Positions 15,130 to 46,400 of a stretch of DNA of 64,000 nucleotides are shown piece by piece (within the stretch, counting starts at the first letter, position 1; the number at the start of each line of letters is the position of its first letter). The stretch is taken from contig NC_030850.1 in NCBI RefSeq assembly GCF_000208745.1, positions 14,662,626 through 14,726,625 on the forward strand. Direction: 5' to 3'. This DNA is from Theobroma cacao (taxonomy: Eukaryota > Streptophyta > Magnoliopsida > Malvales > Malvaceae). Below the pieces are notes generated by a model. The model worked only from the letters and a program-made list of their open reading frames with translations, searched no databases and was not told where the DNA came from. A program made the position numbers and the translations under genes.

Positions 15130-15630
15130 AACGACTGTCGTAGGGCAGGGTTTAAAGTTTGTGAAACGTCATGTTGGGAATGTGTGACACGGCACCACTC
15201 AGAGTTGGTGAGACGCCATGAAGGGAATTTGTGAGATGCTAGAGTTAGGAGTTGGCAACACGCCATGGAGGGAATCTGTGACACGTGAACGTTCAGAGTT
15301 GGTGATACGGCATGGAGGGAATCTGTTACATGCTAGAGTTCATAGTTGGTGAGACGCCATGAAGGAAATCTGTGACACGCTAGAGTTCAGAGTTTGTGAC
15401 ACGCCATGGAAGGAAGCTGTGACACGCCAGAGTTCAGAGTTGGTGACACGCCATGGAAGAAAGCTGTGACACGCCAAAGTTCAGAGTTGGTGACACGCCA
15501 TGGTCATGGTTTAGAGTGTGTGACACAGCATTGCTTGAAAAGCTGACATGCCATGGTCATGGTTTAGAGTGTGTGACATGCCAGTGTTTGAGCAGCTGAC
15601 ACGTCATGGTTTGAAATAAAGAGAGGAAAA
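15130..15630. repeat. Minisatellite array 1 (about 47-bp unit)
   Basis: Six or more diverged units of about 47 bp each carry ACGCCATGGA...GGAA.CTGTGACACGC and GAGTTCAGAGTTGGTGAC. The shared core is GTGACACGCCATG, the reverse complement of the CATGGCGTGTCAC core seen in the other arrays. Confidence 0.85.
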
Positions 15631-16091
15631 AAAATGAGCAATTAACGGGGTAATCGTTTGGACTTTCACTGAATTAATTTCCCTTTTTCAGAATAAATAA
15701 GAATATTATAAGGCCATTTTTCATTTTAAATAGTTATTATTCAGAATTCATAACGTTTGTGTGATTCATTTCTCATTCCTGTCGGTACCGGAGTGTTCGA
15801 GAAGGCTTTTTGCAAGCGTAACGACACCAGAGCACCAACAACAATGTCAGCCATGAATGAAGAGGTCAGTGAGTCTCAAACTGAAACATTCATGTGTTTG
15901 TTTATTTGTTTGGTTTTTTCCTGGGTTTGTTTGATATGTTCGAGTTTTTTGTTTTATTTTTGCAAATGTTTAGACTATGTTTTCTTGCTGGTTTGATGGT
16001 TGTTGGGGTTAAGTTTATGGGTTTTGGGTGTTTATCGTGTGACGCCATTGTTATTCTTGTTATTATAGTTAGTTATTGACGTGTCAGCTTT

Positions 16092-16350
16092 ATATGTTTT
16101 GATTCGATATGCATGATGTATGAGAACATTTTACTTGATATGCATAGCGTGTGACAGCATTTTACTTGATATGCATGGCGTGTGACAACGTTTCACTTGA
16201 TATGCATGGCGTGTCACAACGTTTTACTTGTTATGCATAGTGTGTCAAAACGTTTTACTTGTTATGCATGGCGTGTCACAACATTTAACTTGTTATACAT
16301 GGCGTGTCACAACATTTTGCTTGCTATGCATGGCGTGTCATAACATTTAT
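16092..16350 (+). repeat. Minisatellite array 2 (31-bp unit)
   Basis: About eight units of TTACTTGATATGCATGGCG followed by TGTCACAACGTT lie within the first intron of the DUF1985/Ulp1 gene. Confidence 0.9.
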
Positions 16351-17867
16351 TCCTTATTTATGTCTTCAGTATACCTTGTTGCAGATGATGGCTTAACTCA
16401 CTGGTGCATGTGTGCCATGTTTTGCAGATCCAGCGCAGACAGTATGAGGATCTTGACAGTTTGCTGATCGTGCCGAGGGAGAAGTGGGCATTCAACATTG
16501 GAATTAACACCCACTGTAAGTGGTCGCAGCTGCATTACATCACAAAGACTCTCCAACAGAAGGGGGAGTACGATACAGTTAAACGTACCTGCTTTGGAAT
16601 GCTCATGGACGTCTATCCACAAGGGTACTTTTGCGTCGATCTCTTGCATATAATCATGATTCGCCGGATCAGTGAGAGCCAGTCAATGGACCATAAGCTA
16701 TGGTTTGTCACTGGCAAGAGCAAGGAGTGGCTATCAAAGTAGGAGTTCTGCCTCATCACCGGGCTGAAGTTTGGTCCAATGCTCGATTTGTTCAGACGAT
16801 CGTACGAGGTTGTTGCGAAGGGAATTCATGACAGATACTGAAACGGGCAAGACAACGTGAAGCTGCAGGCTTTGCTTGATACGTTTCGCGGGGGCAACTT
16901 CCAGCGACCAGGAGACGCAACCAAGATGGCACTCGTTTTGATCACGAATAACATTTTATTTGGTCAAGACTACCGTAGACTAGTGACGCCTTGGTTGCTG
17001 TCATTGGTGGAGGGCATCGACACTTGGAATGTCTTCCCATGGGGGCACTATGCTTGGAAGCTGACCTTGGACTACCTTTTGAAGGGGTTAGAAGTGCTTG
17101 ACTCAAGCGTGACAAAAGAAACTCGATTACGCTACAACATTTACGGATTCGTATTGGTGATACAGGTACTATCACGTAACATTTTTCAGTTTTCTTTGAA
17201 AAAAAAAGTTATGGGTGCACTCGTTTATGATATACAGTCTGATAATGGTTACATTTGACATGCAGTTCTGGGCAATGGAGGCAATTTCAATCCTAAAAAA
17301 AATAATTACCCCCTATGGTCTGAAGAACAACGCCTACCCACGAATGTGCAAATGGGATTGCAATCAGAAGCCAAAAGACTTCTACAAGGCAATTCAGAAG
17401 TTAGAGTAATCTGACGATGTGAGTGAACAGCTGCTAATTTTTTAGTTATATTTGTATAATAATTTTCTCTATTCGATAATGACAACATTTTATTTGTTTA
17501 TTTGCAATTGTGGGCACTAGAGACGTTGGAACCCACTGCGAATGAGGCCCTCCGGGAGTATTTTATGGACCTTGATGTCCCGTTATTGGAGGGCCACGAG
17601 TACGTGCCAATAGGGCACATGGAAGATAGGTCTGATTGGGGCTTAGGTGCGAGGCAAAAAAGAGAAGCTTGAAGGAGAAAAGAGCCTCTGGTGGCACGAA
17701 GCGGATGCGCATCATCGCTGCTTTAGTTGATGAGCTATCGGGCCCTAAGTTGATGGACGAAGGGGAAAACCATGGTCAAGGCAGTAAACAGCCGGTAAGG
17801 ACAATTGTAATGATTTTGTGTTCTCCAATTCCATATGTGATTATCGAATAACATTTCTGTGTTTGCA

Positions 17868-18331
17868 GTTGGACCATATGTCAGCAGCTCCAGAAGCACC
17901 CACCGATCCTCCTCAGACGCATAGTGAAAACGACCCGTTAGTAAGATCGATTCTAACGGTTTGTGTTTTACATTTCCACATTTGTTTATCGAGTAACACA
18001 GTAATTTCTATAATTGCAGTTTACGAAAGCGACGACAAGTCCTCAAGCACCAATCGATTCGGCTTAACCGCAGACAACTAACGAGCCGACGGTAAGGATA
18101 TTAAAGTTATAACGGTTAATGTTCAACAATTCTATACATGATTATTGAATAACACAGTTATATATGTAATTGCAGTTTGTGGAAGCAACGACTGGTCCTC
18201 AAGCACCGAGCGATCCGGCTCCACCGCAGACTGCTAACGAGCCGTCGGTTAGGATATTAAAGTTGTAACGGTTAATATTTAACAATTCCATATATAATTA
18301 TTGAATAACACAGTTATATATGTTATTGCAG
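17868..18331 (+). repeat. Tandem exon-intron duplication (three units, about 156 bp)
   Basis: Three consecutive units each hold an intron end (TTGCAG), a short Pro/Ala-rich exon (QAPxxPxPPQTxNEP-like), a donor (GGTAAGG or variants) and a similar AT-rich intron. Acceptor positions are 17868, 18019, 18175 and 18331, giving spacings of 151, 156 and 156 bp. The middle unit has a TAA in the exon, and the third exon's donor reads GTTAGG. Confidence 0.85.
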
Positions 18332-18679
18332 TTGACCTAGTCGAGAATAGTCAATGATGGAGCAGTCACTACCCGCCAGTTTCGATGGATCATGCGCAAG
18401 CATGAAAAAGAGATGTCGGAGCTGAAGGCGTTAATTCAGTCAATGAGTCTAGCAATGCAGACGCTTGAGGACCGTATCGTTGCTCGGATTCTTGACGGCC
18501 TTAAATCACAAGTACGTTGTTTTATCTTTACTTGTATTTTGATGGTTTACATTTAGCAACTGTTTAGATTGTGTTTTCTTACTGGTTTGATGGTTTTTTA
18601 GGTTAAGTGGTAGTGGTTTAACTAGTTTTTGGTCATTAGCGGGTTAGGACATTTGTATTAAAGTTAGTTATTGCTGTGT

Positions 18680-19022
18680 CAGCCTTAGCGTGTGACAACA
18701 TTTGATTTGATATGCATGGCATGTCAAAACATTTAACTTGTTATTCATGGCATGTTAGAACGTTTGATTTGATATGCATGGCGTGTCAGAACATTTTGGT
18801 TGTTATCTTTGGCTTGTCACAACAATTTGCTTGTTATGGATGGCATGTCACAACGTTTAACTTGTTATGCATGGCGTGTCACAACAATTTACTTGTTATG
18901 GATGGCGTGTCACATCATTTTGCTTGTTATGCATGGCGTGTGACAGCATTTTACTTGATATGCATGGTGTGTCACAACATTTTACTTGATATGCGTAGCG
19001 TGTCACAACATTTTACTCTTTA
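18680..19022 (+). repeat. Minisatellite array 3 (31-bp unit)
   Basis: About eleven units with core ATGCATGGCGTGTCACAAC lie between exons of the Ulp1-like gene (donor near 18512, acceptor near 19070). Confidence 0.9.
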
Positions 19023-20539
19023 TGGTTTGTGGTATTTTATGAGCTAATTAACGGTTTTTCCCATTTTGTAGGGCGGTCCATCTCACGGTGCTGGTCTGGA
19101 GCATGATGATGCTGATGATGGACAACATCATGAACCTAGTGTTGACATTGACGATGACGTTCTTAATGCTAACGGAGAGCACATAACTCATGCCGATGAC
19201 GTCGTCGATGAAGCTGTGGCAGTGGATGTCACCCTTCAATTATATGATGCTAAAGGAGAGCATGTTCTTGTGCTCGAGTCCATTATCGATCCATCTGCTG
19301 GAAGGGATGAGGAGCCTGACTCAATCATGGCTGAATGAGAGCATCTTCCTCCGGTCGATGCATTCATCGACGTAGCAGCAGGAGCTATCATTCTTTATCG
19401 TGGGAGCACTCTTGATGCAATTGAGATACGGTCGTCGTCACCAAAGTCATTTGCTATCCATCATGGTGCAGCAAAAATTTCAGACCCAACTGAGCGAGCA
19501 CAGCTGAAAATGGCTAGCAAATACATGGCAAGCCTGTTCATCGACCCCTTAGTGACTCGTCGAGATGTGAGGGATAAAATCGTAGAAGACTACGAAGCTT
19601 TCAAGAAAGACGAGTCCATGAGGTAAGAAACATAAATAACATTGCAAATATTATTTTTTAATGAAACATTAATCCACCACGACTTATGAAATTCATTATG
19701 TTACATATGCAGGCATAACGTCGGCATTTTAAGGGATAAAGGGGCTGACTTTTTCATAACCTTAGAGAATCCCAATGAGGAAATGACAAGTGAACATATC
19801 GACGCATGCCTCAGCCTACTCTGCAAGCGAATGATAGGGCCGAAGTCGAAGCTGTACACTACCCATGCATGCGTGGTTGACACGATATTCTTAGTAAGTT
19901 TATTTGAAAATTGTTCAATTCTACAAATACTAAGTTTTTGATTGCATGAAGTGTAAGCTAATATTTACATGTTTCACAAGACACCATTCGTATATTACAC
20001 ATGGAATTTCCAACAGAAGATGCCCGGGCCACAATGCAAATTCCAGATGAGTTGCGGAGATATGTGGAGGGTGAAAGGTCGACATACTCCAAAAAATGGG
20101 AAGATGTGGATTTCATCCTCGCGCCTTGCAACGTTGGTGGGCATTAGGTGGTTGCGAAGATCAACTTGGTGAAGTGGACGATCAAGGTGGTGGACTCCGC
20201 AAGAACTTTGGATGCTGAGGATAACGGAGTTCATGTAGGTCAGATGACACCCTTGACGACAATGATGCCATTCATCTACCAACAAGCCGGTTATTTCAAT
20301 AACATACGTCGAAAGAGACGGGATTTAAAGCCGATGCCATTGGATATTCATTTGCCAAAAGCTAAAGTGTATTGGCAGAATGATAGTGTCAGCTGCGGTA
20401 TGTTCATGATAGGGTACATGGACCATATTTTGCAATAAGAAAAGATCGGAGTTTGGCAGAATATGATTGCAAAAATGCATCGACAATATGCTCTAGAAAT
20501 TTTTTTCAACAGTTGTGAGAGCAAACCTTGAACATATCG

Positions 20540-20775
20540 GCCCTTGTCTACACAATTTTTTTGTATACAAAATTTTTTTTATACAATTAATTTTATACAC
20601 ATTTTTTGTATACACAATTTATTTTATACAATTCATTGTAAACAGAATTAATTCTTTTTGTATACACAATATACTTTATACAATTATTTTATACACAATT
20701 AATTTTTTTGACTATACATAATTAATTTGATACTATCGAATTTTTTTCCTTTTCTATACACAATATATTTAATTT
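20540..20775. repeat. TATACA-rich low-complexity tract
   Basis: Repeated TTTTATACA and TGTATACACAATT words lie directly downstream of the Ulp1-like coding end. No coding signal. Confidence 0.8.
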
Positions 20776-20779
20776 GATA

Positions 20780-21310
20780 CACAGTCGCAAGAAGTCAGCG
20801 TGTGATGCCATAAATATGCTACCACTCAGCATGTCCCCACATACATTTGCTTGCACTCAGCGTGTCACCCTCATAAATTTGCAAAAAGTCAGCTTGTGAT
20901 GCCGTAAATCAACTAACACTCAGCGTGTTAGTAGTGTCAGTCGATAAATCTGCTTCCACTCAGCGTGTCAGCCCATAAATCTGCTTCCACTCAGCATGTT
21001 AGCCCATAAATCTGCTTTCACTTAGTGTGTCAGAACAATTAGGTCGTGTCGTGTCACTCCATTAATCTCCAGATACTCAGCGTGTGACGTCGTAAATCCA
21101 CTAACACTCAACGTGTCAGCCAATAAATTTACATTCACTCAGCATGTCACACCATAAATCTTCAGATACTCAGCGTGTGACGCCATTAATCTGCTTCCAT
21201 TTGGCGTGTCATAAGAATTGGGCCGTCGCGTGTGACCCCACGATACTGTACCAAGTCTGCCGTGTCACACCATAAATCTACTTGCACTCAGTGGGTCACG
21301 ACTGTGAAAC
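20780..21310. repeat. Minisatellite array 4 (about 31-bp unit)
   Basis: These are diverged units of CACTCAGCGTGTCAGCCC followed by ATAAATCTGCTTC. The GCGTGTCA core matches the other arrays, but the spacer sequence differs. Confidence 0.85.
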
Positions 21311-21384
21311 ATCAGGGTTAAGAATATATGACACGCCACGGTTACAATATGTGACAAGACTGTGACACGCCATTGCTTGAACAG

Positions 21385-21665
21385 CTGACACGCCATGGTA
21401 ACCGTTGCGTGTCACAACGTTTAACTTCTTATGCATGGCGTGTCAGAACAATTTACTTGTTATGCATGGCGGGTCAGAACAATTTAATTGTTATGCATGG
21501 CGTGTCAGAACAATATACTTGTTATGCATGGCGTGTCATAACGTTTAACTTCTTATGCATGGCGTGTCATAACATTTTGCTTGTTATGCATAGCGTGTCA
21601 CAATATTTTACTTGATATGCACGACGTGTCACAACATTTAACTTGTTTTGCATGACGTGTCTCAC
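21385..21665 (+). repeat. Minisatellite array 5 (31-bp unit)
   Basis: About nine units of ATGCATGGCGTGTCAGAAC plus AATTTACTTGTT, the same unit as arrays 2 and 3. Confidence 0.9.
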
Positions 21666-21857
21666 ATTTATTCCTTATTTATTTCTTCTGTATACCTTGT
21701 GCACATTATGGCTTAACTCATTGGTGCATTTGTACCATGTTTTGCAGATCCAATGCATACAGTATGAGGATCTTGACATTTTGCCTCACCAAGAGATGAA
21801 GGAGTTCATGCAGTGAAGCGTACATTTTTGGGATGCTCCTTGAGGTCAATCCACAAG
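21390..21857 (+). repeat. Internal duplication of array plus DUF1985 exon start
   Basis: The order '31-bp array, TTATTCCTTATTTAT, TATACCTTG, splice acceptor TTTTGCAG, start of the DUF1985 exon (CAGTATGAGGATCTTGACA)' at about 16092-16465 is repeated here. About 90 bp of the exon are missing, and the copy runs to ATCCACAAG at 21857, where it switches to RNA-polymerase-like sequence. Confidence 0.8.
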
Positions 21858-22070
21858 CTTGGTCTATCAAACTTTGACCTTGTTTGCACGGTTGAGTTGA
21901 ATGTAGCCCGGTATAGTTTTCCTAGTACCCCAAGGGAAGCATACATGGGTTTGTCAACCTTCTGCATGAAGTTTGGAAACTCCCTTGGTTTCAAGGATCG
22001 AGCCATCTCAGTTGGTGCTGCTGTCTTTGCAAAATCAACAGCCATAGAGTGAAGAGTTGCCAATTCTAGG
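21858..22070 (-). pseudogene. RDR2-like RNA-dependent RNA polymerase fragment, arm 1
   Basis: The minus-strand frame is open. It encodes LATLHSMAVDFAKT, then LKPREFPNFM, a VDKPMY block and VLGKLYRA, a segment I recognise from plant cellular RNA-dependent RNA polymerases. It most resembles the RDR2 (RdDM) type, downstream of the catalytic region. The match covers only about 70 residues and lacks the catalytic motif. It looks like host-gene capture by the MULE, as in Pack-MULEs. The family call is from memory; RDR1 or another clade remains possible. Confidence 0.72.
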
Positions 22071-22095
22071 CTGGATCGAGACCTCGAATCATGGA

Positions 22096-22310
22096 CCTAG
22101 AATTGGCAACTCTTCACTCTATGGCTATTGATTTTGCAAAGACAGCAGCACCAACTAAGATGGCTCGATCCTTGAAACCAAGGGAGTTTCCAAACTTCAT
22201 GTAGAAGATTGACAAACCCAAGTATGCTTCCTTTGGGATACTAGGAAAACTGTATTAGGCTACAATCAACTCAACCGTGCAAGCAAGGTCAAAGTTTGAT
22301 AGACAAAGCT
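22096..22310 (+). pseudogene. RDR2-like RNA-dependent RNA polymerase fragment, arm 2
   Basis: This is the inverted duplicate of arm 1, with the same residues read on the plus strand (LHSMAIDFAKT, LKPREFP). It has two stop codons, one after the PNFM position and one in the KLY position. The two fragments run head to head away from the 25-nt loop. Confidence 0.72.
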
Positions 22311-22359
22311 TGTGGATAGACATATAGGAGCATCACGAAGCACGTAGGCTTCACTGCAT

Positions 22360-22640
22360 TATACTCTCCTATCTCTTTGAGAGTCTTTGTGATGTAATGC
22401 AGCTGCCACCACTTACAGTGAGTTTTAATATTGAGTATTGATAAGCATATGAGAGCCAGAAACCCCAAATTAAAATATCAGGTTAGTTTGCCTAAGATGC
22501 CAAGTCTGCATGCACTCAGTGTGTCACCACAAGACTTGCAGTAAAAACATAAACGGTTAAATCAAATGAAATAGAAGGGAATTAAATCAAATCATTAATT
22601 ATTTGATACAAGTGGTAATAAAATGTGACAAATGGGGTAA
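22360..22640. other. Inverted DUF1985 exon piece and spacer
   Basis: Bases 22360-22445 are the reverse complement of the DUF1985 exon (about 16500-16590; CACTGTAAGTGG and GCAGCTGCATTACATCACAAAGACTCTC blocks). They continue arm 2 beyond the region kept in arm 1. The rest is AT-rich, with one CACTCAGTGTGTCACCAC word like array 4. Confidence 0.7.
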
Positions 22641-22733
22641 CAGTATAGGGACTTAATCTCTTAATATTGGCAGCCATTCCATGCTTGTTGTTCCTTCATA
22701 AGATTTGTGTAGCCACTTGTACTTAATGTTGTC

Positions 22734-23041
22734 ATTATAGTTGATTTCGTTTTGCTTCACGAATTTGTCTGCTCGGTCATTCTATGAGCCACTTTTAGTT
22801 ACAGACTTTGTTACCAAACATTTCAGGCAGATAAACTTGTCAAGGCTCCTGTCTGATGGAGAATGTAATCGGAACATTCTTACAAACAATGTAAGAATGT
22901 ACTTTAACACAATCTTGATTAGACAGAGGCCTTGATAGGCTTATCTGCTTGAAATGTTTGGCAACAAAGTCCATAACTAAAAGTGGCTCATAGAATGACC
23001 GAGCAGACAAATTCGTAAAGCAAAACGAAATCAACTATAAT
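22734..23041. repeat. Second inverted repeat (hairpin 2), arms 121 bp, loop 66 nt
   Basis: Arms 22734-22854 and 22921-23041 are reverse complements with about 90% identity by eye. The loop contains its own small stem (CATTCTTACA / TGTAAGAATG). It sits just beyond the 3' end of the transposase gene. I do not recognise a protein in the arms. Confidence 0.9.
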
Positions 23042-23057
23042 TTTCAGACACATTTAG

Positions 23058-26055
23058 TTAGGCGAACAAGCTGTCTTCATCCACAACACACACTACATTT
23101 TCAGACATTGTCCTTTGTATTTGACAGTTGTTACGTGTGTGACTGGTTTGTTTGCAACTTGAACATGCTTTGGGTCGACGCAGTCGTGGAGACGCCGATT
23201 GACTTGGAGATGGTGACGAATTTGTGGATAGAACTACAAATGGGGATGGGCAGTTCTGTCTATTATGCCCGTTCCTCTTGCATTGCAAAAATCTCCGTGC
23301 TCAACTGCCTTCGCCTTCACCAGCTAATGGAATCCTTCTCCTCCTAAGTCTTCCCGCTTGGCCTCGCCAAGGTGGGGGTAAGACGATAATTTCTTTCACA
23401 TGAGGGGGGATGTCCCACTCACTAGGATGCATTACCGGCCTAATGGATCCTGAATAACCATCCACCAAAACGGTTGTCTTGTAATAGTCAGCACATAATT
23501 CAATGGCTTCACAATTGCATTTACTGAAAAACACAATAAACTCAATCTTCAAGCACAATGTAAATGCTATGTCAATTACGGTTCAAATAAGAAATAAATA
23601 TATTCTGACCTTATTGCTGCAATGGTATGGCTGCATGGCAGTAAATCTGTTTAGAACTCATAACATGAACACGTCTTTCTGGACAGGTTTGCAAGTCCGT
23701 CCATCTTCCTGTCTTTAACTTCGAACTCCGCTCGATTGATAGGCTTAACTAGAAAGCGATGTGCATCATTGAACCTTTTGCTCAACTGCCTAGCAACCCA
23801 AGGGTTGAGGGGGGGTCACCTTGACGGCCTCCTCGTACCGATCATGGAACCAACGCTGGAACATGTCTTTGATGAACTCAATCAAAACAGTGATCGACAT
23901 TTGTTTTGCATGCTTCAAGCATGAGTTAACACATTCCACAATGTTGGATGTCATCATTTGGTATCGCTTTGCCGGTGAACATGCACGTGCCCATTTCTCA
24001 AGCCCTATTCTCATAAGGTTCGCATGGGCTCCCAAGTGAATATGTTGTATCTGGTTCATATGTCTGTTGAAATCGACCACCTTATAGCAATCTCGAGCAA
24101 GGGTGAAAAGCATACAAATATCGTCGCGCTTGAACTTGTTTTTAATTTTTTTTTTTCAAGTGGTAATCGCATAAACCATGGTGTGCTTCTGGGTATGCAT
24201 TTTGGATTGCTTTCTTAATGCCTAGATGCTGATAAAAAATGAACATAGTCTTTTCAGGACAACCAACCGCATCACGCAGCTTGCTAAGAAACCACATCCA
24301 CGAGTCTTCGTCCTCAACATGGCCGATGCCAAACACAACTGGATATACGCACTCGTTCGCATATTTGCATACAGCGACAAACAGAACACCCTTGAACCTG
24401 TTTTTGAGATGTGTCACATCAATTGCAACCGTAGGACATTTTACATCCATAAACCCCCGAATACAAGCCTCGTATGACCATAAACAATATTTGAATCTCT
24501 CTTCCTCATCAATAGTCACTGTAGTCACTGTGCCAGGATTTTCTTATTCCAACATATAAAAATACGATGGTAGTAGCTGAAATGACTCCTCTAGTGGATC
24601 AAAAACAAGCCTCTCCGCATACTCCTTCGCTTGCCAAGCCTTACCATACAAGCATTCCAATCCCCATTGAACTCTCATCTCACAAATTATGTCCTTAGGT
24701 CTCAATGCTACTCCATTAGCCCGAAGCTTGTGTGACATAAGTTCACCAATCATCTTCGCACTCGTAGTTGCAAATCGCTTTTGCAAACCATCAACAGTAC
24801 AGGTGTGTACTTTATGGAATGTCAGAACTTGCCAATATTATCCTCTATCAGGTAACTTCGTTGCACGAATACTAAACTTGCATGCCTTGTCCTTGCAACC
24901 AACCTCGTAACGAGCTTTACATGACCTTTTTACTCTTATCGCAAACTTCTATTTTATAACCAACATGTTCAAAGCTCGTTTCAACTCAGCTTTCGGGAAA
25001 ACATTTTTCCTTTGTATAAGCGATCTTCTGCACATGTCGACTCCTCAGTGGTAATTGTTTAGAAGGAGAATCTTTCTACACCTGTAATTACCCACATACG
25101 AGATATCCCTACATTTTCGCTTTCCTGATCACTGTCATCGAACAATGTATTAAGGGAACGAATCCCGTTCTCACCAGTGATGGGGTTATTGTATATTGGG
25201 CCATCACACTAAACATTTCCTACATCAACATCTCCAACAGGTTCCGTTTCGCCTTCAACATTATTACAAATTGGAATGTCACTATCATAAAAGTAGTCAT
25301 CGTCTGAATTGTCATCTTGCCATTGTTCAAGCCCATCATCTGAAGTGTCATCAAATCTATCTTCATTGGCAGCGAACAAATCCTCATTTCCCTCATCAAA
25401 TGCAGTATTATCCTCCAGCGTTGCAGTGTCACCCTCCAACCTCACATTGTTGTCCTCAACTGTCGTATTCTCATTTGACAATGGCATTACACACTGTACA
25501 GTTTCACCCGATCGTTGCATTTGTTTAAGAGAAGCAAGAAATTGGTTTGATGCACATCCTAATCGGAATTGTGCAGCCAACTGTTCTGTGAATGTCGTTG
25601 GTCTACCGGGCTGCACAAACTCTTATGCATACCTCAATTGCCATTGTTGTGGGTTACGAACCAAATGCTGTGGTATATGTGAAGCATTGTAAATCTCATT
25701 TTGATTGAGCTGATTACCATGTTGTCCAACTTCTTCATGTGACATAATGTTTGTTTGGCGTCCCTTAATGCTAACATACACAGTCGGAACATTCCTCTGT
25801 TCTAGCAAAATTAATGTAACATCCTCATCGTCCTTGATAATTGGCCGTAATAGCTCTCCGGGTGTACTGGTCAATGCATGTAACTCAATCTCATCAATTT
25901 TTGAGTTTACCCCAACAACATTTTCAACCAGCTTCATCAAGCCCACAAACGATAAATCACTCCTAACCCATCGCATTCGTGACTCACCACCCTTGTAAAT
26001 GTTGTCCACCTACTGACCACCGTGTCTTATCATAAGTCGCACAATTGGAACCCCA
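23058..26055 (-). pseudogene. MuDR-type MULE transposase
   Basis: Read on the minus strand. The N-terminal PB1-like block (IYKGGESRMRWVRSDL) lies at about 25950-26009. An acidic linker (25209-25616) and a Mutator DNA-binding block (SCKARYEVGCKDKACKFSIRA) lie at about 24850-25020. The DDE catalytic domain is at about 24140-24528, with AIDVTHLKNRFKG, EDEDSWMWFL and GLCDYHL. An ACSPAKRYQMMTSNIVE block lies at about 23790-24000, a SWIM-like tail at 23300-23558, and CCHC zinc knuckles at 23058-23288 (the second, CSSCKQTSHTRNNC, is complete). The usual SDRH motif reads FYQH, so one catalytic Asp is Tyr. Stops split the frame, including TAG before VDNIYKGG where Trp is expected. Transposases of this family cut and paste the element through its TIRs; this copy looks dead. 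Confidence 0.9.
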
Positions 26056-26099
26056 CTGAAATTTTGAAAAAAAAAATTATTGTTAATCATTTTACACAA

Positions 26100-26290
26100 T
26101 ACATGCCGTGATAAAAAATTTATCAGTTGTGTTGTTACACGCCATGCATATATAGTAAAATGTTGTAACACACCATGCATATCAAGTCAAATGTCGTGAC
26201 ACGCCATGCATCAGTATCGTGACATGCCATGCATCACTGTTGTGACACGCCATGCATCACTCTTGTGACACGCCAATCATTGTAATTACT
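26100..26290 (-). repeat. Minisatellite array 6 (31-bp core, inverted)
   Basis: On the minus strand it reads GCATGGCGTGTCAC units, as in arrays 2, 3 and 5, so it mirrors the left-half arrays. Confidence 0.85.
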
Positions 26291-26545
26291 GACTCATTAC
26301 ACCAACAGCCGTGACACGCTAAAAACCCAAAAAACTAGTTAACCCACGATATGTCAGGAACAGTTGTGACACGCTAAAAACCCAAAAAACTAGTTAACCC
26401 ACGATACGCCAGGAACAACCGTGACACGTCAAAAACCCATAAATTCAGTTAACCCACGACACGCCAAGAACAGCCGTGACACGCTAACAACCCAAAAGAC
26501 TAGTTAACCCACAACACGCCAGGAACAACCTTGACATACTAAAAT
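26290..26545 (-). repeat. Minisatellite array 7 (about 60-bp unit)
   Basis: Four to five units contain GTGACACGCTAAAAACCC, ACTAGTTAACCCACGA and CGCCAGGAACA. On the minus strand the GGGTTAACTAGTTTTTTGGG block resembles single-copy sequence at about 18600-18640 in the left half. Confidence 0.85.
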
Positions 26546-36281: not shown

Positions 36282-37590
36282 GAGGATATTGAAAATTTTT
36301 TTTAAGAAATTATAAGAAAGGGTCAATCTTATAAAGTCATTTCAAAAAGAGAAAAATGTGAGAAATAAATTTTTTATTAATCATCAAAAAAAATTTAACT
36401 GTTTTTCGTTATATTTAGTAATAATTTGACAAAAATATCTTTGAACTATTTCATATAAATTAAACTATTCATTATAATTTCTCTTCATTTATGTTTCCGA
36501 TTTCTCTCTCTCATTATCAAACTCTTTTTAATTTTATTGATTTCTCTCTTCAACATTCGTCTGTTATGCTCTCAATTTCTTTCTCCCGCGCTTTCAAGAC
36601 GCTAAGCGATGATTTTGATGTGCTTAGGATGAGTGGCTATTTGGAGGATTTGATTTTTAAGTATTTTGGATGAAATTAAAACGGTAGAAATAATCACGAA
36701 TGTTTAAAATTGGATTAATTCGGGATTTAGATATCAATAAACTTAAAATTTTTAAATTTATAAACCTAGAGTTTCAAAGGAAAATTTTTTTAATTTTTAG
36801 TCGAAATCGGTATTTTAGATAAGAAAATTTGTGTTTTGATTTATGAAAACATGTTAGAAACACTTAAATAAAAATAAATTAAAAGAGTTGAGAGGATTTG
36901 AAATTTTGTTCGTAGGTAATAAAATATTTTAAGTATTAAAGTGTAACAAAATTTTTTTAAATATTACGTATAACAATAATATTTTTTCAACATGGCGTGT
37001 AACAATAACATTTGTTTCAACATAAAGTATAACATGTTTTTGTACATGGCGTGTAATAATAATATTTTTTAACCATGACGTGCAATATGTTTTATTCATG
37101 ACGTGTAACAACAATATTTTTTTTTTCAACATGACATGTAACAACATTTTTTAACCATGACATATAACATGCTTTTATACATTGCACATAACACTATTTT
37201 TTTTTTGTCAAACATGGCGTATAACAACCTTTTTAACCATGATATGTAACATAATTTTGAACATGATGTGTAATAATAATATTTTGTTTCAATATAGCAT
37301 GTAACAACCTTTTTAACCATGACGTGTAACATATTTCTGAACATGACGTGTAATAACAATATTTTTTTTCAACATAGCAAACAACAACCTTTTTTAACCA
37401 TATCGTATAATATATTTTTATACATGATGTGTAACAATAATATTTTTTCAACATGGCATGTAACATCATGTAATGGTGTATAATATCATTAAAAGTAATT
37501 TTGTCCAATTTAGTTAAAAATAGTTAAAATTATAAAAAGAGTTATTTTTGAAAACATCTTATATTTAAGGGTTATTTTTTAAAATACTCC
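36282..37590. mobile_element. Short non-autonomous relative of the MULE (element B)
   Basis: The left end GAGGATATTG equals the MULE right terminus (GAGGATATT). The right end, reverse-complemented, reads GGAGTATTTT and continues AACCCTTAAATATAAGATG, TTTTAACTATTT and GGACAAAATTAC, aligning with the MULE left TIR block by block. The interior (36940-37460) is an array of CATGGCGTGTAAC-type units, the same core as in the MULE arrays with A in place of C. No coding capacity. Confidence 0.7.
36940..37460. repeat. Minisatellite array in element B
   Basis: Diverged units of about 30-45 bp contain AACATGGCGTGTAACAA or close variants, separated by AATATTTTTT stretches. Confidence 0.85.
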
Positions 37591-39108
37591 TTTAAAAAAT
37601 AGCCTTTAATATAAAGTTAATTGTTTTTACCCAAATTTTGTTATGAGTTGACAAAAATTCCATTGAAGTTATTTTAGGCAAATTAAATCATTTATCATAA
37701 TTTTTCCTCCTAATTTCTCTCTCCGACATTTGTCTGTTATGCTCTCAATTTCTCTCTTGTTATCCAACTCTCTCTAATTTTATCAATTTCTCTCTCCCAC
37801 CATCTAGCCGTCTCTAATTTTACTGCCATTGTTATCTCTTTCTGTCTATTTCTTACTCTATCATCATTGATTTACAAACCAAAAAGTAGAGATGATATTA
37901 ATGTATATTCTTGGGTTTATTTATTTACATTCACAAAATCTCAAAATTAATGGGTTGAAGTTATATAACTGAAATCTGTAAATTAGAACATTGTCCAAAA
38001 TTGTTACGCACCATACCTACATGGCGTGTAACAAATTTATTGAATATGGTAGGATTTAAACATGGCATGCAACTTGATTTTTATTTTTGTATTTCATTAG
38101 AATATGAACTCTTTGAGTTAAACATCTTAAACATAACGTGTAATAATTTTTTTTTTCAATATAATGTGTAATAACTTTTTCTTTTCAATATGATGTGCAA
38201 CTTAATCTCTTATTTTGTATTTCACTAGGATATAAACTGTTGAAGTTAAACACAAACATGACGTGTAATAATTTTTTTTTAACATGATGTGTAATAATTT
38301 TTTTTTAACATGATGTGTAATAATTTTTTTTTAACATCACTTGTAACTTGTTCTCTATCTTTGTATTTTACTAGGAATGAGTGCTACAATTTTTTTTTCC
38401 AACATGACATGTAACTTAGTCTTTATATTTGTATTTCACTAAGATATAAACTCTTAAGGTTAAATATCTTAAACATGGCATGTAATAATATTTTTTTTTC
38501 AACATAGCATGTAACAACATATTTTTGAACATGACGTAACAATAATATTTTTTAAACATGACCTATAACTTGATCTCTATTTTTATATTTTAGTAGGACA
38601 TTTACACCTTAAACATAACGTGTACAATTTTTTTTTTCAACATGATATTTTCTGAGTTAGTCGTTTCATCAGAGTTCTTGCAGTAGCTGCATACCACCAA
38701 TACATCTTTAGGGTTACAGCTATCAAGGCTTTGGGATCCCGATCAACTAAAGAAAAAGAAACAAAAAACTTATCAAATATCAAAATGGCTTTGTCTCCAC
38801 TTCTTCTTTTTTTTTTTTTCATTTTTCATTTGTGTGTGTGAGAGAATATTTATGATGATGTCCCTTCTTTCTTCTTTTTCATCTTTTCTTTTTTTATAAT
38901 TTAAATATTTATTATTAGCTTTTGCAACTCTGTGTTATTATTTTTGAGTAATGATGGTGTTGATTTTTTCTTTTCAAAAACTAATATGAGGAGATTTCAT
39001 TAAGAGTAATTTTATCATAAAATATTACTTTTGGCTAAAACGGTTAAAATTAAAAAAAAGTTATTTCAAAAACACCTCATCTTTTAAGGACTAAAAAAAA
39101 TTTATCTC
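37591..39108. mobile_element. Short non-autonomous relative of the MULE (element C)
   Basis: The right end, reverse-complemented, starts GAGATAAATTTTTTTTAG and continues CCTTAAAAGATGAGGTG, TTTTAACCG and AGCC, matching the MULE left TIR in order. The left end is a shortened version (AATAGCCTTTAATAT, TTGACAAAAATTCC). It shares a 130-bp CTCTCTC-rich segment with element B (36410-36590 versus 37640-37790). The array at 37985-38640 uses the same ACATGACGTGTAATAA words. B and C are adjacent and in tandem. Confidence 0.65.
37985..38640. repeat. Minisatellite array in element C
   Basis: Irregular units contain AACATGACGTGTAATAATTTTTTTT and CATGGCATGTAAC words. They are more decayed and more T-rich than the array in element B. 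Confidence 0.8.
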
Positions 39109-43416: not shown

Positions 43417-46400
43417 ATGGCAAACACGAGGTTTGGAGTGGGAACCGAGGGTGTTGCTTCCACCCCTGATACAAGGGAGACACGTTCGGGTAGGGTGAAG
43501 AGGAAGTCCATCTTGAGAGACCTCCTAGCCGCGGTAGAGTCTAGGTTGTCCCACCAAGAGGAGCGTGTGGCAGAGCTGGCTGATCGTTGCTAGGCGGAGG
43601 AGGCTCGAAGGGATGGGTGCAAGGAGCACATGGTCGAGCTGCGAGAGGAGCTGCAGGCCGCTCTCAATGAGACCCTCGAGGCATTAACCCAGCGTGATGC
43701 TAGGTGAGAGGTTGAGGCCGAGTAGCTACGATGTGAGATGAGCGAGCTAAGGCGCGAGCTCGAAACGTGCAAGGCACTCCTTGGTGGAGGATTGCTGGCC
43801 GTACAACCGTCTAGCAAGGTGGACATCCCCAAACTGAAAGAGTTCAAGGGCCAGTGGAATGCCCAAGACTTCGACAATTTCGTGTGAGGGATGGAGCAAT
43901 ACTTTCGGGCCACCAACATTGCCGATGATGGTAAGAAAATCAACACAGCTTCGATGTATCTTACTGACTTGGCTTGTTTATGATGGCATAGGAGGTGTGA
44001 TGAGAGGCACGGTGGAGCTGCCATCTCAATGTGGACTGACTTTGTGCGCGAGCTGAAGGCATAATTCTACCCCGAGTACCCGTAAGATGAGGCGCGGGGC
44101 AAATTGAGACGCCTAACGCAGCAAGGGGGAGTTCGGGAGTACGTGAGGGAGTTCACCGAACTCATGTTGCAGATCAACGACCTAAGCGAGCAAAAGTCTT
44201 TGTTTTGCTTCCTTGATGGGCTGAGGCCGTGGGCAAGACAGGAGCTCCAACATCGAGGGGTCCTAGACATCACTGCTGTGATGGCTGCAGCAGAGTCCCT
44301 GATTGAGTTTCGCAAGGGGGATGCGGATAAGGATGAGGGGAAAAGCAAGGCCAAGGTGAATGCCACTGCCAAACCACTGCCGAGGGGCATTACCAACGGG
44401 CAAAGCAGCACGCGAGGTACTGTCCAAGGCAGTTGTGCAGGGGATAAGGGCAGGAGGCCCCTGACATGTTTTCTGTGTGATGGACCACACGTGGTCTGAG
44501 ACTGCCCCAAGAAGGCCAAGCTGTCTGCCATCATCCAAGAGGGGGAAAATGAGGGGCAGCAGTAGCGAGATTCTTTGAGATTGGGCACCATGATGCTGGT
44601 AGCACTGAAATAGCACAAGTCGAGCTGTAGCAAGGGCCTAATGTTTGCGGACATAATGGTGGCGGACAAGAAATTGAATGCGCTGGTTGACACGGGAGCA
44701 AGCGACCTGTTTGCCTCTGTCGAGACAGCAAAGATGCTAGGGCTAGACACCAAGGCTGGGGCAGCGCGCATTAAAACTGTCAACAGCAAGGAGATTCCCA
44801 CCGTTGGCACCGCAAGCAACGTGGATGTGGGCTAGGTGAGTGGGTCGGTAAGGAAACCGTCGAAGTTATTCCTTTGGATGATTATGATTTTGTGATTGGT
44901 TTGGATTTCCTTGACCGAATAAATGGCATGGTTGTCGCATTCTTGAGCTGCATTGTGATTCTTGACCTGCAGGGTCAATGTGTGGTGCCAGTAAGGCGCG
45001 AGTAGCAATCCGTGACCACGACGCTGAGCGCCATACAGCTAACAGATGGTGTGCGCAGGGGCGAAGAGACCTTTGTAGCCACGCTATCCCTGAACGAGGG
45101 CGAGCCGAGCGAGGCAGCACCCGAGTTGAGTGAGGTATCGGACGTGCTGGACCAGTATGCGGATGTCATGTCGGCCAAGCTGCCTAGCTCTTTGCCGCCT
45201 GAGCGTGAGGTGGACCACAAGATTGAGCTTGTGCCGGGGGCACAACCACCCGCTAGGGCACCTTACCGAATGGCACCCCCAAAGCTAGCTGAATTACGAC
45301 GGCAGTTTACGGAGTTGATTGAGGCAGGCTTCGTTCGGCCAAGCAAAGCACCCTATGGTGCACCTGTCCTCTTCCAGCGGAAGCACGATGGGACGCTGCT
45401 ATTGTGCATCCACTACCGAGCACTCAACAAGCTGACCATCCGGAACTGCTATCTGATCCCTAACATCTCCAAGCTGTTCGACCAGCTAGAGGAGGCCCAT
45501 GTCTTCTCCAAACTTGACCTGCGGTCTGGGTACTATTAGGTGAGGATTGTCGAGGGGGACCAAGAGAAGACTGCCTACGTGACGCGTTACGGTAGCTTTG
45601 AATTTCAAGTCATGCCCTTCGGCTTAACCAATGCCCCCGCGACGTTCTGCACATTCATGAACAAGGTATTGTCATCGTTCCTTGACAAATTTATGGTCGT
45701 ATACCTTGATGATATTGTCGTTTATAGCAGGACCATGGTGGAGCATGTGTGGCACTTGCGGGCTGTGTTTAAGTGCCTAAAGCAGCACCAGTTGTATGTC
45801 AAGCGGGAGAAGTGCTGCTTTGCTCAGCTGGAGATCCCCTTCCTCGGCCACATTATTAGGGGAAGCCGGATTAGGATGGATGCAGCCAAGGTCCGAGCTA
45901 TCAACAAATGGAAGCAACCCACTAGAGTGACTAGGTTGCTGAGTTTCTTGGGGCTAGCCAACTACTACCGCAAGTTCGTGCGGGGCTACTCAGACATCGC
46001 AGCACCCTTGACCGACTTGTTGCGCAAGGACCGCACATGGCAATGGAGTTCAGAGTGTGAGTAGGCGTTCCAGCGACTGAAGCAGGCGATGATCGAGGAG
46101 CCTGTGCTACGCTTGCCAGACCCGAGTGTGCTGTATGAGGTGCACACTGATGCGTCAGACTATGCCATAGGCGAGGTGCTCATGCAGCAAGGCCAGCTAG
46201 TGGTGTATGAGAGCCGAAAGCTCAATGACACCGAGCAGCGCTACACGGCTCAAGAAAAGGAGATGACAACGGTAGTGCACTGCTTGAGGGTGTGGCGGCA
46301 CTACTTGCTAGGTGCATGGTTCGTGGTGAAGACAAACAACATAGCCAATAGCTTCTTCCAAACCTAAAAGAAGCTGACCCCCAAGCAAGTTATGTGGCAG

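Follow-up and report, generated by a model that had tools for sequence, protein, structure and literature searches.

Carrier element and its features

The window (the whole 64,000-nucleotide stretch of Theobroma cacao DNA analysed) harbored a long hairpin inside what its gene content indicates to be a Mutator-like element (MULE) with VANDAL/Kaonashi-like anatomy, the DUF1985 match being sub-threshold. The hairpin lay between two converging genes (transposase on the minus strand and Ulp1 on the plus strand), and the element displayed the following features:

24142..24528, minus strand: MULE transposase domain (PF10551, E 1.2e-17)
20148..20438, plus strand: Ulp1 C48 protease domain (PF02902, E 1.5e-8)
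16857..17258, plus strand: weak DUF1985 match (E 1.6e-5; 25.4 bits, under the Pfam cut-off of 35.1)
15156..15503, plus strand: 47-bp tandem array with the TGACACGCCATG motif
16106..16348, minus strand: 31-bp tandem array with the TGACACGCCATG motif
18688..19024, minus strand: 31-bp tandem array with the TGACACGCCATG motif
21407..21670, minus strand: 31-bp tandem array with the TGACACGCCATG motif, directly upstream of the hairpin
26304..26544, plus strand: 55-bp tandem array of related repeats, with motif copies just before the array (26135-26254)

VANDAL/Kaonashi elements are described, in the available text of three papers, as combining motif arrays with genes for MULE transposase, Ulp1, and DUF1985 proteins, and VANC proteins are described there as binding short-motif arrays and inducing methylation loss (PMC5735166, PMC10398659, PMC13317346); VANDALs are also termed non-TIR MULEs (PMC13317346). 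The cacao element shared with VANDAL/Kaonashi (KIU) elements the MULE transposase, Ulp1, a DUF1985-like piece, and tandem arrays of one motif, but it differed in two respects: (i) its DUF1985 match was below the Pfam cut-off and (ii) it contained an RDR2 hairpin, of which the available text of the three papers made no mention for the Arabidopsis elements (PMC5735166, PMC10398659, PMC13317346).

The five tandem arrays at 15156-26544 (three 31-bp, one 47-bp, and one 55-bp array) shared TGACACGCCATG or a relative of it. At up to one mismatch, TGACACGCCATG had 34 matches in the window versus 0.09 expected, and 31 of the 34 were located between 15.2 and 26.3 kb. These five arrays are candidate binding sites for the VANC-like protein of the element, and, by analogy, a cacao VANC-like protein might bring about methylation loss at them. 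An acceptor-like TTTTGCAG (spotted by eye) and a tandem array lay just ahead of the hairpin. The inverted pair 13888-14039/29132-29282 (76% identity) represented possible element ends, and a limited scan showed no target duplication. Two further regions were recognized elsewhere in the window: (i) 36991-38031, with three TTACACGCCATG sites and, at 37057-37469, a related repeat forming an 80-bp array, which may mark another related element, and (ii) 44104-46064, with frames like retrotransposon gag/reverse transcriptase, recognised by eye only.

Structure of the hairpin

The near-palindrome spanned 21785-22383, the arms measuring about 286 nt and the loop 25 nt; its parts, together with a second inverted repeat nearby, were as follows:

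21785..21867, plus strand: arm 1 outer part, of MULE origin and related to the exon located at 16425-16631
21868..22069, minus strand: arm 1 inner part, 202 nt derived from host RDR2, in antisense orientation on the plus strand, 92.6% identity to C3:488462-488663
22071..22097, plus strand: loop, 27/27 nt identical to RDR2 at C3:488230-488256 (L033:1386-1412), sense
22097..22298, plus strand: arm 2 inner part, sense copy of this 202-nt RDR2 segment, 89.1% identity, frame interrupted
22299..22383, minus strand: arm 2 outer part, MULE-derived, reverse of the MULE exon
22734..23041, no strand assigned: second inverted repeat, arms 22734-22866 and 22909-23041 (133 nt, 89%), 42-nt loop, found in many family copies

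Without gaps, the arms paired over 21827-22070/22096-22339 (244 nt, 92% complementary, spacing 25 nt); with gaps, they paired over approximately 21785-22070/22096-22383. RNA folding of 21750-22420 gave -478 kcal/mol, with shuffled sequences averaging -182 (z -38) and none of the 20 shuffles folding as well. RDR2 accounted for only 202 nt in each arm, the outer ~85 nt being MULE sequence, and 22309-22429 paired with 16503-16623 at 82% (outer arm 2 versus the MULE exon). The earlier note had described arms of about 263 bp around a 25-nt loop, both encoding an RDR2 segment and set in a MULE. The inverted repeat was confirmed, with arms of 244 nt (ungapped) or ~286 nt (gapped); an RDR2-like frame was recovered by Pfam, PDB, and the C3 gene (see below), open in arm 1 but containing stops in arm 2, and the RDR2 part was confined to 202 nt of each arm; and the MULE setting was borne out by the PF10551 domain.

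The second inverted repeat, about 350 bp from the RDR2 hairpin, gave no match in a PDB search and none over the cut-off in a Pfam search, and it had at least 79 genome matches (40 of 72 candidates scored).

Source of the captured fragment

The arm frame matched the Pfam RdRP profile (E 9.6e-13) and four PDB entries (E 1.6e-19 to 5.9e-18), of which two bear the name RNA-dependent RNA polymerase 2. When the genome (325 Mb in 431 contigs) was scanned with the Pfam RdRP profile, RDR-like genes were identified on contigs C2, C3, and C9. The C3 gene aligned without gaps over 319 residues with a PDB chain bearing the name RNA-dependent RNA polymerase 2 (E 4.5e-154). At the end of the RdRP domain, it scored 155 bits against the PDB RDR2 chain, compared to about 102-104 bits for the two C2 genes and 74 bits for the C9:1.35 Mb gene, in a comparison that left aside the C9:5.32 Mb gene and had no RDR1 or RDR6 among the PDB answers. 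Judged from these alignments, the hairpin parent is the RDR2 gene on C3, the best RDR2 match among the RDR-like genes compared.

Since both the arms (92.6% and 89.1%) and the loop (27/27 nt) matched the C3 gene, they come from one host gene. Within that gene, the loop segment precedes the arm segment by 205 nt and has the orientation of arm 2; the gene stretch between the two segments is absent from the hairpin, with an intron apparently falling within it (a break between Pfam matches). Other RDR genes were ruled out as the source: no 15-mer and no 21-nt window of the window hairpin was matched in the nine loci of other RDR-like genes.

Genomic copies and spread

A DNA search of the genome with the RDR2 exon gave 63 matches (38 of 38 candidates scored), comprising the gene itself and 36 other places, namely, the window hairpin and 35 more; two of these 36 places, separated by 6 kb, may belong to a single element. 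Both arm orientations were present at 25 of the 36 places. Among the 62 element matches, 55 ended at query base 280, two ended 4 and 11 bases beyond it, one ended 3 short, and four were shorter pieces. Because 55/62 stopped at the same base, the pattern fits a single capture followed by amplification together with its carrier. In a tree, 35 copies formed a star-like pattern with a nested subfamily. Twenty-two of the 35 copies retained at least 600 nt of the hairpin region, and these folded at -397 to -557 kcal/mol. One of the 22, L059 (C2:17560700-17561850), had an uninterrupted 214-bp helix, the longest of all (the next being 125), which would be either a recent arm-to-arm conversion or an assembly artefact.

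Match between the hairpin and RDR2

A majority arm was built from the 51 of 62 arm pieces with at least 190 nt (11 shorter ones were dropped). It was identical to RDR2 at 195/202 sites, and five of the seven differences fell at third codon positions; one of the seven was split among the arms (26 A, 22 C, and 3 T), and two residues differed between the majority-arm protein and RDR2. This third-position pattern, which is that of a constrained gene, suggests that several of the seven differences arose in RDR2 after the capture, albeit from small numbers and without an outgroup. With only 7/202 differences, five of them at third positions, the hairpin would probably have been, at the time of its spread, a near-perfect trigger against RDR2. 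Arm likeness averaged 91.3% within elements (21 elements) versus 90.1-91.1% between elements, with arms 1 and 2 labelled by locus strand rather than by element orientation; as the within-element value was hardly above the between-element one, the two arms probably had almost the same sequence at the time of the burst and have decayed apart since.

The window copy still matched the RDR2 gene exactly in 63/579 21-nt windows and 48/576 24-nt windows, corresponding to 53 and 41 distinct gene sites, respectively (loop included), with 49 nt as the longest exact stretch. Single arm pieces kept 0 to 58 exact 21-mers, and 109/182 21-mer positions of the RDR2 segment were matched exactly by at least one of 35 loci. 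The interpretation in the earlier note was thereby partly supported: besides the RDR2 origin and the MULE setting, a parental RDR gene exists in the same genome, the arms share long exact matches with it, and the hairpin fragment recurs at 35 other places.

Proposed role of the hairpin

The main reading is that the hairpin served in counter-defence against RDR2 while the element was young, to which a probability of about 0.38 is given. A VANDAL/Kaonashi-like MULE took up two pieces lying close together in the host RDR2 gene, the longer of which ended up there twice in opposite orientation, giving a long hairpin between two converging genes, and the element would have spread to dozens of places while its arms matched RDR2 almost perfectly. 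Read-through transcription of a copy would yield self-complementary RNA and hence double-stranded RNA, from which Dicer enzymes could release 21-24-nt siRNAs with no need for RDR2; these siRNAs might lower RDR2 mRNA or methylate the RDR2 exon, and RNA-directed DNA methylation would be weakened as long as the element was young. The copies have since become methylated and are in decay, with the footprint described below. According to the available text of one report, Arabidopsis rdr2 compromises the re-silencing of VANDAL21 after VANC activation (PMC10398659); lower RDR2 could therefore favor a young VANDAL-like element. A weakening of RDR2 in trans would presumably aid every transposon, leaving little private benefit for the carrier.

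Decay of copies, methylation footprint, and loss of the hairpin

About equally likely is passive carriage, itself held only tentatively: the MULE would have picked up a gene piece, as MULEs often do, the palindrome would have come from repair, and the whole would have hitchhiked, with any RDR2 siRNAs too few or too short-lived to have an effect. The divergence of the copies from their majority sequence was in line with such carriage, being 0.055-0.056 in the inner arms versus 0.053-0.054 in the near flanks, and the inner arms were slightly faster than the near flanks within both subfamilies. The outer arms diverged more than the inner ones (0.096-0.106), as did the loop (0.107); because the near flanks match the inner arms, this excess was not taken as selection, and it may stem from subfamily differences of older date, from CpG sites, or from misalignment. 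Selection for a match to RDR2 was sought in divergence by segment and in mutation contexts across copies (segment borders being one base off the parts list in both analyses), and none was found; nor was pairing kept by co-evolution supported within the genome, the arms decaying at the near-flank rate. Against passive carriage stands the nature of the load: the captured piece pairs with itself, comes from a gene active in silencing such elements, and still shows both arms at 25/36 places; this coincidence carries no statistical weight, since it goes back to one capture event.

Loss of the hairpin was traced through transposase relatives. Ten of the 40 scored (of 462 candidates) were within 10 kb of a hairpin, and four hairpin-less ones among the other 30 were fetched: all four were without 21787-22763, with the same junction (TTTG microhomology in L070, by eye), all four had the second repeat with a truncated left arm and a full right arm, and they nested among hairpin bearers with supports of 0.73-0.92 in midpoint-rooted trees. 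The mark of this deletion (the second repeat from query base 31 onward) was found at 12 or more places, including the fetched L073 (40 of 72 candidates scored). That these copies never had a hairpin was rejected for the four fetched, given their nesting and the truncated left arm; from the same two observations and the shared junction, the hairpin was probably ancestral in the group and lost in a clade that still spread. Continued spread of this clade agrees both with passive carriage and with a hairpin acting against its own element, the next reading.

Mu killer (Muk) of maize is a long hairpin tied to Mutator-type transposons and targets the transposon itself. An equivalent self-silencing trigger in cacao, whose double-stranded RNA would direct methylation to the element's own copies and so help the host, is considered unlikely. 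In its favor, the copies are strongly marked by a C-to-T footprint, seen in each of the CG, CHG, and CHH contexts: C-to-T or G-to-A accounted for 404/578 arm changes, and the C-to-T rates in the inner arms were 0.149 (CG), 0.182 (CHG), and 0.051 (CHH), as against 0.005 for transitions at A/T sites. CHG and CHH rates were also higher in the inner arms than in the near flanks (0.133 and 0.036; p 0.009 and 0.014, respectively). The far parts of the element were, however, as strongly marked as the inner arms (CHG 0.173, p 0.54; CHH 0.060, the arms being lower, p 0.04), and the footprint is therefore not called hairpin-specific, a result that also counts in favor of passive carriage. A-to-G/T-to-C changes were rarer in the inner arms (30/5901) than in the far parts (116/10839). 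Read from these contexts, the pattern is a methylation footprint across the whole element. The cacao hairpin resembles Muk in being long and tied to Mutator-type transposons, but most of each arm is host RDR2 and only the outer ~85 nt is MULE-derived, while Muk targets the transposon. Taken together, the flank-like decay of the arms, the element-wide footprint, and the spread of the hairpin-less clade disfavor a continuing antagonist role.

A coding arm (part of a gene for an RDR2-domain fusion protein, the palindrome being incidental) was judged very unlikely: although a 96-codon stretch of one arm frame is open, arm 2 has stops, 14/47 element rows have stops within the matched stretch, the piece is limited to the last part of the RdRP profile (positions 513-581 of 582), and private changes by codon position (263, 206, and 109) are fewest at the third, the opposite of protein constraint. 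Four of the six protein matches of the arm frame were named Theobroma cacao (P0003-P0006), three of them short and named partial RNA-dependent RNA polymerase and the fourth RNA-dependent RNA polymerase, which speaks for coding; these four are probably misannotated element copies. In P0003 and P0004, the antisense arm, a loop-like stretch, and the sense arm were read as one frame.

Comparison with known systems

The earlier note had cast the hairpin as the mirror image of Mu killer; a closer mirror is miR820 of a rice CACTA element, which derives from OsDRM2 and represses it, as described in the available text of PMC3459959. In that account, pre-miR820 is similar to OsDRM2 and directs the cutting of OsDRM2 mRNA, lower OsDRM2 raises transposable element expression in rice, the miRNAs are of 22/24 nt, co-evolution was shown, and Nipponbare has 5 copies and a BB genome at least 18 (PMC3459959). 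The cacao element shares with miR820 a DNA transposon containing a fold-back that resembles a host gene of RNA-directed DNA methylation and has multiplied with the element; the trait characteristic of miR820, a fold-back from a host silencing gene inside a transposable element, was thus present in cacao. The two cases differ in three respects: (i) CACTA plus DRM2 in rice versus MULE plus RDR2 in cacao; (ii) a miRNA stem with demonstrated cleavage versus a hairpin of ~286 nt known from sequence only; and (iii) 5 or at least 18 copies versus 36 places (PMC3459959).

Pack-MULE activity, or transduplication, provides another parallel: captured pieces of host genes are spread by MULEs and may yield siRNAs against the donor gene, according to the available text of PMC13317346. 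The cacao element likewise had a host gene piece captured and spread by a MULE, but it contained a transposase domain in the same element, and its captured piece was an inverted repeat. A search by title or abstract, with most of the subscription literature outside its reach, found no report of an RDR2-derived hairpin in a transposon.

Implications

An extended form of the counter-defence reading has two layers, with a VANC/KIU-like protein stripping methylation at the element's own arrays and the hairpin RNA lowering RDR2, on which RNA-directed DNA methylation depends for re-silencing such elements; this combination is regarded as rather improbable. If it were true, the hairpin siRNAs, being RDR2-independent, could keep working as RDR2 falls.

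If the hairpin works as proposed, it would be another case, after miR820 and DRM2, of a transposon turning RNAi against a transposon-silencing pathway, here at RDR2, in a carrier that also resembles the VANDALs with their protein-based anti-silencing. Whether RNA counter-defences evolve recurrently in transposons could then be tested with ordinary cacao small-RNA libraries.
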